From Bacteroidota bacterium (GTDB lineage Bacteria > Bacteroidota > Bacteroidia > 2-12-FULL-35-15), in contig JAJTCJ010000059.1 of NCBI GenBank assembly GCA_021323165.1, positions 1 to 44,461 of the forward strand: DNA of 44,461 nt, given 5' to 3'. Positions 20,103 to 23,638 of this stretch are shown in pieces. A program made the translations under genes and the position numbers. Position 1 is the stretch's first letter; the number at the start of each line of letters is the position of its first letter. The notes under the pieces are model-generated. The model worked only from the letters and a program-made list of their open reading frames with translations. It had not been told where the DNA came from and searched no databases.

Positions 20103-20675
20103 CTATTTCAACTCAGGAAGCGTATACTTTCTTCCTTTGTTCTGTTCCTTTAAGTAATCCATTAATGGAGCAAAATAATCAAGCATTGCTTTTGCGCTCA
20201 GTTCACTGCCGGTTTTCTCTTTTAGAAGTTTTCTCCAGTCAGCGCTTGCACCCGGTTTCATGATATCTCCAATGAATTTTCCAACTTCTTTGTTCCCATA
20301 ATAGTTAGTATTGTGAGGGTCCTGGTGAAGGATGTTTTTCGCAATATGATCATGGATCTGGAAAAGCAAAATGTATGATAAGGCATAATCATAATATTGA
20401 GCAGCATCATCATTTATATGTGTTTTTGTAGCTGCATCACAATATTCTTCGCCTCTAATTTTAGCAGGAGCTATTCCCTGATATTGAGCTGCAAGCTCCC
20501 ACCAACGTTTGTTGAACTGATCTCCCGGAAGGTTGTTAGAATAGATATCATGTTCGAACATACTCATTGTTCCCGTGCTGAAAGGAATAAAAACTACATA
20601 GTTCAAAGCTTCTTTTAATAAGGTCTGCATCTCATCTGATTTAGAATTTTTAGGGATCAGATCAAGATTTTCCAT
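20103..20675 (-). CDS. M2 peptidase, C-terminal fragment (out of frame)
   Basis: The C-terminal part of the M2 (angiotensin-converting-enzyme-like) peptidase whose N-terminal part ends at 20657. Homology begins at ENLDLIPKNSK and continues through the helical C-terminal domain (YALSYILLFQIHDHIAKNIL) to the natural end. The apparent ATG at 20675 is simply the first Met after the break, so this is unlikely to be an independent protein. A terminator follows. Confidence 0.7.
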   Translation of the reverse strand: MENLDLIPKNSKSDEMQTLLKEALNYVVFIPFSTGTMSMFEHDIYSNNLPGDQFNKRWWELAAQYQGIAPAKIRGEEYCDAATKTHINDDAAQYYDYALSYILLFQIHDHIAKNILHQDPHNTNYYGNKEVGKFIGDIMKPGASADWRKLLKEKTGSELSAKAMLDYFAPLMDYLKEQNKGRKYTLPELK

Positions 20676-21886
20676 ACTTCATGATAAGCACGGTTAGCAC
20701 CTTCTCTTAAGATGACAGGAACTTCGGGATTGCTGTAGGAAAGATAATAGTAAATGTGCCCTAGCTCATGATGAGATGTTTCATACCATTCGCTGTTTGG
20801 TTCTACACTCATTAGAGAACGTACATCCTGATCATAATCCATGTGCCATGCAGAAGCATGATTGTTCTTTTTATATTTAGCATCTTTTGGTGCAGGATAC
20901 AGATCTGATTTTTCCCAGAATGTTTTTGGAAGCTCTGGAAAACCAAGGCTTACATAAAAACGTTCTCCCTGTTTTACGATCCATTCCGCATCTTTTGTTT
21001 TTAAAGCACTATCGAGGTTAATCCCTTTTACATCAACAAGGCTGCTCCAGTCCTGTCCCCAACGATTTGGAAGCCAGTGGGCGGGGATCATATCCGGAAC
21101 TTCTTTTACGCCATATTTTTTTGCGAATTCATAACGTGCATAAGTATGAAGCTCGCGAAATAAAGGTGATAGTTCTTTATTGAACTTCTGAAGCATTTCC
21201 GTCATTTCCTGAGTAGTCATACCGTAATCAGAAACCTGGTATTCGAAATAGTCTTTGTATCCAAGGCCCTGAACAGTTTTGTTACGAAGATCACGAAGAT
21301 TCAATAAGCCTTCTTTTAAACCTTTTCCGACTTCCTTACTGGCTTCCCATGCTTTTTCGCGTTTAACCAGATTTTTATCATGACCAAGGATCTCATCGAT
21401 CTGATTAGTGGTAACAGACTTTCCATCTATCTTAAAATCGAATCCGAACAGGTTCTCTGATTGTTTTGTTTCTGCTTTGATACGAGCAGAAACAAGATCT
21501 TTAAGTGTTTCAGGATTGTTTGCAGCTTTATAAATGATGCTGTTTAATTGCTTTACCTGGATCTCGGTCAGCTGATCTTTCTTTTCAAGAAATTTTCTGG
21601 CAGTCTCAATGTTTACCGTACTTCCTGTATATTTTGCCAGTTCTTCCTGCGCTTTGTTGTTTGCAACTGCGTTTGTTGAATCGCCCTCAATGATGCGGAT
21701 CTGTGTTTGCCAGGCAGCTTCGTTAGCAATGATGTTCAGCTCGCGGTATTGTTTGTTGTAAGAATCAAGATATACCTGAACGCTATCCTGGATGCCCTTA
21801 TTATCATTGTTTTTGTCATGTGTTTTATCACCACCGCATGAATAAAGTATCACTGCGCTGGCAATAAGGATAAGTTGTTTTTTCAT
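20657..21886 (-). CDS. M2-family metallopeptidase lipoprotein, N-terminal part (frame broken at about 20683)
   Basis: A dipeptidyl carboxypeptidase-like zinc enzyme. It is a lipoprotein (signal ending LYSC). The zinc motif HELGH (H373, E374, H377) and the following REGANRAYHE, whose last Glu should be the third ligand, are present. In intact relatives the HE is followed by a conserved segment (about A-M-G-x-L-x-G-L-A) leading to ENLDL. Here about 43 bases are absent, so the frame ends with VWKILI and the remainder sits at 20103-20675. As it stands it would be a truncated and probably inactive enzyme. Confidence 0.85.
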   Translation of the reverse strand: MKKQLILIASAVILYSCGGDKTHDKNNDNKGIQDSVQVYLDSYNKQYRELNIIANEAAWQTQIRIIEGDSTNAVANNKAQEELAKYTGSTVNIETARKFLEKKDQLTEIQVKQLNSIIYKAANNPETLKDLVSARIKAETKQSENLFGFDFKIDGKSVTTNQIDEILGHDKNLVKREKAWEASKEVGKGLKEGLLNLRDLRNKTVQGLGYKDYFEYQVSDYGMTTQEMTEMLQKFNKELSPLFRELHTYARYEFAKKYGVKEVPDMIPAHWLPNRWGQDWSSLVDVKGINLDSALKTKDAEWIVKQGERFYVSLGFPELPKTFWEKSDLYPAPKDAKYKKNNHASAWHMDYDQDVRSLMSVEPNSEWYETSHHELGHIYYYLSYSNPEVPVILREGANRAYHEVWKILI

Positions 21887-22021: not shown

Positions 22022-22437
22022 TTTAACTTTTTGAAGGCAAAAAGTTACAATCCCGCAGGTGCGGGACTTTTCATAAGGAGATTTTCAGCTTCGCTTTCGC
22101 GCGCAGAAACCGCGGCTAAATTGATTGCAAGGAAACATTTTAGGCTTTAAGTTTAATATCGGTGCAATCATTTACCGCTATCTCTTAATGAAAAGAAAGA
22201 GTCACCCCGAGAGAGGAATCTCTATTTATAAGATTCAGGTCAAATAATAATTTCGAAGCTGCGCGTTAGCTACGACCGAACGCGATGGCGTTTCGAGGTG
22301 AACCTCCTTTTACTTGAAAATCTTAGCAGAAGCTTTAGTTCTTCTGCTTTAGATTTTCTGTAAAAGGAGGAGAGGCGGGAGGAAATCGTTCGGTCTTGAA
22401 TTTTTTGTAACTTTTTGTTTCAAGACAAAAAGTTAAA
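22022..22437. repeat. Gene-free element of nested inverted repeats (MITE-like)
   Basis: The gap between 21887 and 22492 has no gene. Its ends are inverted copies: TTTAACTTTTTG...CAAAAAGTTACAA (22022-22050) and TTGTAACTTTTTG...CAAAAAGTTAAA (22405-22437), each itself a hairpin. Inside are TCCCGCA/TGCGGGA (22051-22066), TGATTGCA paired with TGCAATCA, GACCGAACG (22274-22282) paired with CGTTCGGTC (22387-22395), and a 68-base hairpin. No transposase frame is present. A non-autonomous mobile element is possible; a composite of several intergenic repeats is the alternative. Confidence 0.5.
22303..22370. repeat. Long near-perfect hairpin
   Basis: The arms at 22303-22332 and 22341-22370 pair along almost 30 bases: CCTCCTTTTAC with GTAAAAGGAGG, GAAAATCT with AGATTTTC, and AGCAGAAG with CTTCTGCT. 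Only small bulges interrupt them and the loop is 8 bases. It lies inside the larger inverted-repeat element. Confidence 0.75.
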
Positions 22438-22492: not shown

Positions 22493-23638
22493 ATGTCTGA
22501 ACAAAAGCAAAAAGTCATTATAGTAGGCCCTGCATTTCCTTTAAGAGGGGGTATTGCTAATTTTAATGAAGCATTATGCCGTGCTCTTCAGCAAGATGGT
22601 ACAGAGGTAAAGATATATTCATTCTCACTTCAGTATCCCGGGTTTCTTTTCCCGGGTAAAACTCAATATGATACGGGAAATGGGCCTCAGGATATTCAGA
22701 TCATAACCACAATCAATTCTGTAAACCCTTTGAACTGGATAAAAGTAGCAAGAGCTATCAAAAAAGAAAAACCAGATTATGTTATTTTCAGATACTGGCT
22801 TCCGTTTATGGGACCATGCCTTGGAACCATTGCAAAACTGATTAAAAAAGGTACTTCTATAAAAACCATCGCAATAACGGATAATGTTATTCCTCATGAA
22901 AAGCGGCCGGGTGATACAGCCTTTACAAAATACTTTATTAACCAAATGGATGGTTTTATTGCAATGTCACAAGCGGTTTTAGCTGATCTGAGCTTCTTTA
23001 CCAAATCAGACAAAAAGCGATTTCTGCCACATCCGATCTATGATATATTTGGAGAGAAAGCCGGAAAAGAAGAATCTTTGAAACAGTTAGGATTACCAGT
23101 TACGGATAAGTATATTTTATTCTTTGGATTTATCCGGAAATATAAAGGTTTGGACCTGTTGCTTAGTGCTATGTCAGATGATCGGATAAAAAGAATGGGT
23201 ATTAAATTGATCGTTGCAGGAGAATATTATGAGGATGAAGCACCATACAACGAGTTGATACGGAATAAAGGTCTTGAAAACTCTGTTATTTTAAGGACTG
23301 AATATATCCTTTCGGAAAAGGTTCGTTTTTACTTTTCAGCATGCGACATGGTTGCTCAACCTTACAGAACAGCAACTCAAAGCGGTGTTACTCAAATTGC
23401 CTATCATTTTGAAAAGCCAATGTTAGTAACCAATGTAGGTGGTTTGCCAGAAATTGTTCCGGATAAGGTTGTGGGATATGTTACTGACATCGATCCGAAC
23501 TCCATTGCCAGTGCTATTGTTGATTTTTACGAAAATAAACGTGAAACTGAATTTACCGTTAATACTGCCATCGAAAAACAGCGCTTTTTATGGAGCACAT
23601 TTGTAAAGGGTGTGAAGGACCTTTACGAAAAATTATAA
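22493..23638 (+). CDS. Glycosyltransferase family 4 protein
   Basis: A GT-B fold enzyme that transfers a sugar from a nucleotide donor to a cell-surface glycan or lipid. The N-terminal domain begins KVIIVGPAFPLRGGIANFNE. The C-terminal donor domain has FFGFIRKYKGLDLLL and the late segment QSGVTQIAYHFEKPMLVTNV followed by GGLPE, typical of GT4 enzymes. The chosen start gives 381 residues; the longer frame adds 26 residues read from a palindromic repeat. No other surface-sugar genes are nearby, so the substrate is unknown. Confidence 0.85.
   Translation: MSEQKQKVIIVGPAFPLRGGIANFNEALCRALQQDGTEVKIYSFSLQYPGFLFPGKTQYDTGNGPQDIQIITTINSVNPLNWIKVARAIKKEKPDYVIFRYWLPFMGPCLGTIAKLIKKGTSIKTIAITDNVIPHEKRPGDTAFTKYFINQMDGFIAMSQAVLADLSFFTKSDKKRFLPHPIYDIFGEKAGKEESLKQLGLPVTDKYILFFGFIRKYKGLDLLLSAMSDDRIKRMGIKLIVAGEYYEDEAPYNELIRNKGLENSVILRTEYILSEKVRFYFSACDMVAQPYRTATQSGVTQIAYHFEKPMLVTNVGGLPEIVPDKVVGYVTDIDPNSIASAIVDFYENKRETEFTVNTAIEKQRFLWSTFVKGVKDLYEKL

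Follow-up and report, generated by a model that had tools for sequence, protein, structure and literature searches.

An intergenic palindromic stretch of a Bacteroidota genome is probably an old copy of a MITE-like element that ends in a conserved pseudoknot

Background

The window considered here (the whole of the DNA analysed, 44,461 nucleotides of a Bacteroidota contig) carries an intergenic palindromic stretch of 416 bases, at 22022-22437, that raises a simple question: what keeps so much structure in DNA that encodes no protein? The stretch has a peptidase M2 gene running leftward on its 5' side and a glycosyltransferase gene running rightward, with its start at 22493, on its 3' side, and thus lies between divergent genes. 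The peptidase gene (20103-21886) is split in two overlapping frames, matching positions 6-377 and 395-575 of the Pfam profile, which is a frameshift or an assembly error. A sequence-only reading of the window had proposed that the stretch may be a mobile element of the non-autonomous type, or else may encode a strongly folded RNA.

Results

Structure of the stretch

No open reading frame of 60 amino acids or more was found within the 416 bases, in agreement with the absence of genes noted earlier, and every inverted pair named by the sequence-only reading was recovered in its place. The outermost pair joins TTTAACTTTTTG (22022-22033) to CAAAAAGTTAAA (22426-22437) and a second outer pair joins CAAAAAGTTACAA (22038-22050) to TTGTAACTTTTTG (22405-22417), both with 100% complementarity; each end can also form a hairpin (left, 22024-22033/22038-22047; right, 22405-22418/22425-22438). 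Further inside are a 68-base hairpin (22303-22332/22341-22370) and the inner pair of GACCGAACG (22274-22282) with CGTTCGGTC (22387-22395). The same reading held this structure to exceed chance and suggested folding both strands. Using dinucleotide shuffles of both strands as controls, we obtained a folding energy of -151.7 for the plus strand against -102.7 +/- 6.1 in shuffles (z -8.1) and a z of -8.8 for the minus strand, so that either strand folds some 8 standard deviations better than its shuffles, and 0 of 100 shuffles was as good as the real stretch.

Copies in the genome and a two-module map

A similarity search of the source genome with the 416 bases returned 28 matches, the best apart from the query itself being 71% identical over 395 bases, and 18 of the 41 genomes searched (the source included) gave matches. 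The whole interior recurs, and not just the end hairpins around a unique interior, the outcome that would have spoken against the proposal. Covariance models found 21 copies of a right module (R; model R1) and 12 of a left module (L; model R2) in the source genome, with identities of about 70-80% among copies; those inspected sit between ordinary, unrelated genes. In these own-genome matches the order is fixed: L, preceded by the left hairpin, then R.

On the plus strand of the window, the left hairpin occupies 22022-22049 and is shared by almost all left-half copies in the genus; its sequence AACTTTTTGAAGGCAAAAAGTTACA occurs exactly at 6 places in the source genome, against 0 for a reversed-pattern control. 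It is followed by a 16-bp palindrome, TCCCGCAGGTGCGGGA (22051-22066), standing where most other copies have a AAAACCTTTT segment, and by the L module (22066-22197, plus strand), a folded unit closed by 22067-22082/22180-22195. An A+T-rich, unconserved linker (22198-22252) leads to the R module (22253-22435, plus strand), which begins with CGAAG, has a pseudoknot at its end and is often found alone. Within it, the inner pair named above forms a helix, P1 (22274-22395), enclosing the long hairpin (22303-22370), which is short or missing in mini forms. The "hairpin" of the right end does pair and is better read as part of a 3' H-type pseudoknot (22395-22435), made of the stems S1 (22395-22400/22419-22424) and S2 (22408-22418/22425-22435) and the loop L1 (22401-22407).

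At many loci, the window's 22051-22066 included, a 16-bp palindrome, TCCCGCANNTGCGGGA, has been swapped in for short A/T-rich segments at several places of the element, namely the left hairpin region, the L1 loop of the pseudoknot and the tip of the long hairpin, which gives it the look of a very small independent repeat.

Selection on the fold

In 35 right modules, a structure of 44 pairs has 95.3% of its cells paired, against 80.8 +/- 0.5 when shuffled; once the partners are shifted by 1-3 columns, pairing falls to 46-61%. Both sides have changed in 32 of the 44 pairs against 19.6 +/- 1.8 in shuffles, a level reached by 0 of 500; such changes affect 8 of the 9 pairs of P1 and 15/17 and 6/7 pairs of the long hairpin. 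The left module, judged from 23 copies, has compensatory changes in 15 of its 28 pairs. Compensatory changes of this extent across copies show that the fold itself is under selection.

The 3' pseudoknot

The pseudoknot was studied in 195 unique sequences, collected with a search pattern consisting of its 5' half plus (T/C)AAG only. Directly after P1, the order is CTTGA(A/T), L1, the first strand of S2, (A/T)TCAAG and the second strand of S2. Among the 168 whose loop has 6 bases, S2 is paired in 1672 of 1680 cells (1505 +/- 7 when permuted) and the two outer positions of S1 in 333 of 336 (244 +/- 6 when permuted). The two stems interleave and therefore form an H-type pseudoknot, and the joint pairing that a triple-helix pseudoknot calls for is thus kept by covariation. 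L1 is a pyrimidine run with the length of the proximal S2; it runs parallel to the purine strand of S2 in a fixed register, and its T faces an S2 A. At the variable position of L1, C goes with an S2 G in 11 of 16 cases (non-G in 5) and T with G in 1 of 152 (non-G in 151). This association (Fisher p 9e-13) comes from related sequences that are not independent, part of them fetched with a pattern that fixes L1 as T but not the S2 base, and mutation by slippage could mimic it in part. Base triples of the U.A-U and C.G-C kind predict such co-variation, and L1 and S2 probably form a major-groove triple helix. In most elements of one genome of the same genus (G197), L1 is deleted or exchanged for a 16-bp palindrome, so that there, at least, the triplex can be dispensed with.

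The 3' end shares features with SAM-II, preQ1-II, telomerase RNA and ENE elements, which are major-groove triple-helix structures; unlike them, it closes a repeat on the 3' side, outside any ligand or protein context, and its triple helix is predicted from covariation. It also resembles SAM-V (PMC6061858) in its H-type topology, in a U-rich first loop parallel to a purine strand and in the covariation of U.A-U with C.G-C.

Evidence of mobility

The orthologous intergenic site is empty in four genomes (G006, G001, G010 and G007). In a fifth, G009, it holds a mini right module without the long hairpin, on the opposite strand (C11:200300-200800, L100); the same intergenic region was there struck independently, or was rearranged.

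G197 contains 15 complete elements of 358-521 bp with the left hairpin and the L module, most also with an R-type end, bounded by terminal inverted repeats (TIRs) of about 27 bp, AGTCTTGCATTAGWAAAATGTAGGTTTT. Target site duplications (TSDs) are exact over 8-9 bp in 8 of the 15 and over 6 bp in one, and the best-scoring 8 bp show one mismatch in 2-3 more; in total 11 of 15 have an exact or nearly exact duplication of about 8 bp and the rest have none, while mismatched pairings used as a control score 6 or more in 1%. These elements are a genuine family of non-autonomous transposons. Since these younger relatives reach about 40-90 bp further, to true inverted repeats, the outer "ends" of the window stretch are internal hairpins of the element type: the earlier description of them as inverted and foldable holds, and their role as element ends does not.

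Two other genomes carry the modules between other ends. G173 has at least 150 module matches and 336 TIR-like ends of a different kind, with a 3-bp TSD in 5 of 8 readable copies; at C2:132-749 and C22:1583-2059, its elements form head-to-tail arrays with a unit of about 240 bp. G275 has at least 63 copies with a third kind of TIR and AT-rich duplications of perhaps about 10 bp, as read by eye. The differing terminal repeats of G197, G173 and G275 indicate that a single fold moves in vehicles whose ends differ.

At the window copy, resemblance to the G197 ends was not significant (z 0.85 and 0.6), no target duplication was recognised, and TIRs of the G197 type were likewise not significant at the other copies of its kind. 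The expectation of copies sharing ends and target duplications was thus borne out in relatives, with duplications in G197 and G173, and not at the window copy itself, which must then be old or derived. In G197, TIR matches pair at about 360-520 bp or stand single, and spacing revealed no autonomous partner; no obvious transposase was seen on inspection of three G173 regions, and plasmid and phage searches with the element gave no match.

Distribution in Bacteroidota

At E <= 1e-3, model R1 matches 100 of 296 genomes of the class and 67 of 165 genera, the weakest matches covering the pseudoknot alone; at E <= 1e-6, 43 class genomes remain. P1 accompanies 106 of 201 pseudoknots (15 when permuted), with 51 distinct P1 sequences. 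The left module hardly occurs outside the source genus, with matches in 4 of 197 genomes of the class. When 84,980 species were scanned for the pseudoknot, all 80 matches listed bore titles of Bacteroidota or its genera, including Flavobacterium, Chryseobacterium, Pedobacter, Mucilaginibacter, Segetibacter, Aequorivita and Bacteroides luti. Outside the class, R1 gives weak matches of 34-40 bits and one strong match of 66 bits (G566). Copy number per genome ranges from none detected to at least 150. In Bacteroides, Pedobacter and Flavobacterium (L200, L190, L192, L196 and others), this pseudoknot comes after a second, different kind of conserved upstream part (ggcctc..gcgttaag..ctgtttgagcgaagcgagtt). 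Several Chryseobacterium species keep copies beside the same genes, with up to three beside one gene at locus L287; across genera, no recurrent neighbour gene of the copies was found.

Discussion

Relation to known repeats and RNAs

Rfam 15 gave no credible match in the elements at gathering score; a group I intron, obtained with lax thresholds, was rejected as a chance-level match (17 bits against a cut-off of 50, E 0.17). A literature search, for the most part of papers open without subscription, gave no description by sequence or by matching features.

The elements are close to bacterial MITEs. They are short, gene-less and dispersed in multiple copies, and the G197, G173 and G275 relatives have TIRs, with target duplications in G197 and G173; the window copy lacks both, so that its place among MITEs is drawn from these relatives. 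Unlike MITEs, the element has no parental IS that we could find, no autonomous partner with the same ends having been found in G197, and its fold is conserved across genera in vehicles with different TIRs. The mobile/repeat sequence candidates (MRSC; PMC11109978) are similarly multi-copy and structured, inconsistent in gene orientation and possibly active as DNA. The example described among them, MRSC-65-2, occurs across diverse phyla and carries UYCCGG repeats (PMC11109978), whereas our element has the P1 helix and the 3' pseudoknot and was seen in Bacteroidota only, among the matches listed. REP and the GTAG- and CGTC-tagged palindromes are also high-copy intergenic palindromes, of 20-40 bp (PMC3733652), while the element measures 80-500 bp and has a pseudoknot, and no Y1/RAYT transposase was found in the source genome.

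Proposed origin and use

Taken together, the stretch is probably an old, end-eroded copy of a MITE-like non-autonomous element of two folded modules, whose core would be used as read-through RNA. Its identity as a mobile element is the strongest step, and one of which we are highly confident. The original proposal is supported by the recurring interior, the TIRs and target duplications of G197 and the compensatory changes. Movement would proceed by DNA transposition, with a transposase supplied in trans and acting on the TIRs.

The use of the core as RNA is the weakest step, and we consider it evenly balanced. It is suggested by the geometry of the pseudoknot and triplex, by GT cells outnumbering AC cells (80 to 28, in favour of the plus strand; 27 to 23 per pair) and by the avoidance of divergent intergenic regions: of 88 copies, 8 lie between divergent genes and 26 between convergent ones (p 0.003), the window copy being in the rarer setting. 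A promoter motif, TANNTTTG, was found upstream of 0 of 35 R modules, so a dedicated RNA is not indicated, and read-through transcription would be the most likely source. The exchange or deletion of L1 in most G197 elements likewise speaks against a use as RNA. The purine-rich 3' strand, the pyrimidine loop and the S2 stem would then build a triple-helix pseudoknot that may cap and shield the 3' end, or separate neighbouring transcripts, and in this role could make insertions between genes tolerable.

More tentatively, the fold might be a Bacteroidota-wide structured RNA with a triple-helix pseudoknot end, riding unrelated miniature transposons with different TIRs and TSDs of 3, 8 and perhaps about 10 bp. 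With the same reserve, this RNA might help the element or make its insertions harmless, which would make it the bacterial equivalent of the triple-helix elements that stabilise transposon RNAs in eukaryotes.

Alternative explanations

The fold could instead act as single-stranded DNA bound by a recombinase or an HUH transposase, as attC sites and IS200/IS605 ends do. The hairpins at both outer edges, the few G-T pairs (about 4% of cells) and the even GT/AC balance at the level of pairs fit this idea, which we nevertheless consider unlikely, given the GT excess at the level of cells, which favours one strand, and the outcome of the search for a Y1 (HUH) transposase as driver (PF01797), with 0 matches in the source genome (89.6% complete) and in G011 (99%). 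IS200/IS605 elements have neither TIRs nor target duplications; membership in that family fails, as the G197 relatives have both.

A conserved structured RNA that serves the host or regulates genes, passed on vertically and merely picked up by mobile elements, would account for the strong compensatory evolution over tens of genera and for the shared neighbour genes in Chryseobacterium. It is quite unlikely in view of neighbours that do not recur across genera, a copy number running from none detected to at least 150, empty orthologous sites and the missing promoter motif. Very unlikely too is a REP-like terminator or attenuator repeat that is not itself mobile: divergent intergenic regions are avoided and a U run follows P1, but at a distance of 5 nt, a terminator has no need of a conserved pseudoknot, and the relatives with TIRs and TSDs show mobility. 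A SINE-like retroelement, with an RNA that the 3' triplex protects and a reverse transcriptase copies, is highly improbable, for although the shared sequence in the source genome stops at the 3' strand of the pseudoknot and an RNA intermediate would be well served by a triple helix at its 3' end, the TIRs and fixed-length target duplications of G197 fit a DNA transposase.

Conclusions

The right module of this MITE-like element is a multi-genus repeat, sometimes with more than 100 copies per genome, for which we found no description in Rfam or the literature searched. If our reading is true, many Bacteroidota genomes, among them those of Flavobacterium, Chryseobacterium, Pedobacter, Bacteroides luti, Mucilaginibacter and others, carry a class of repeats that Rfam lacks and whose fold is precisely conserved; many intergenic palindromes, and some contig breaks, would then have an explanation. 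The use of a triple-helical 3' end by a bacterial mobile repeat would also become testable, and since cultured carriers exist, such as Chryseobacterium jejuense and Pedobacter cryotolerans, RNA-seq and deletion work are possible.
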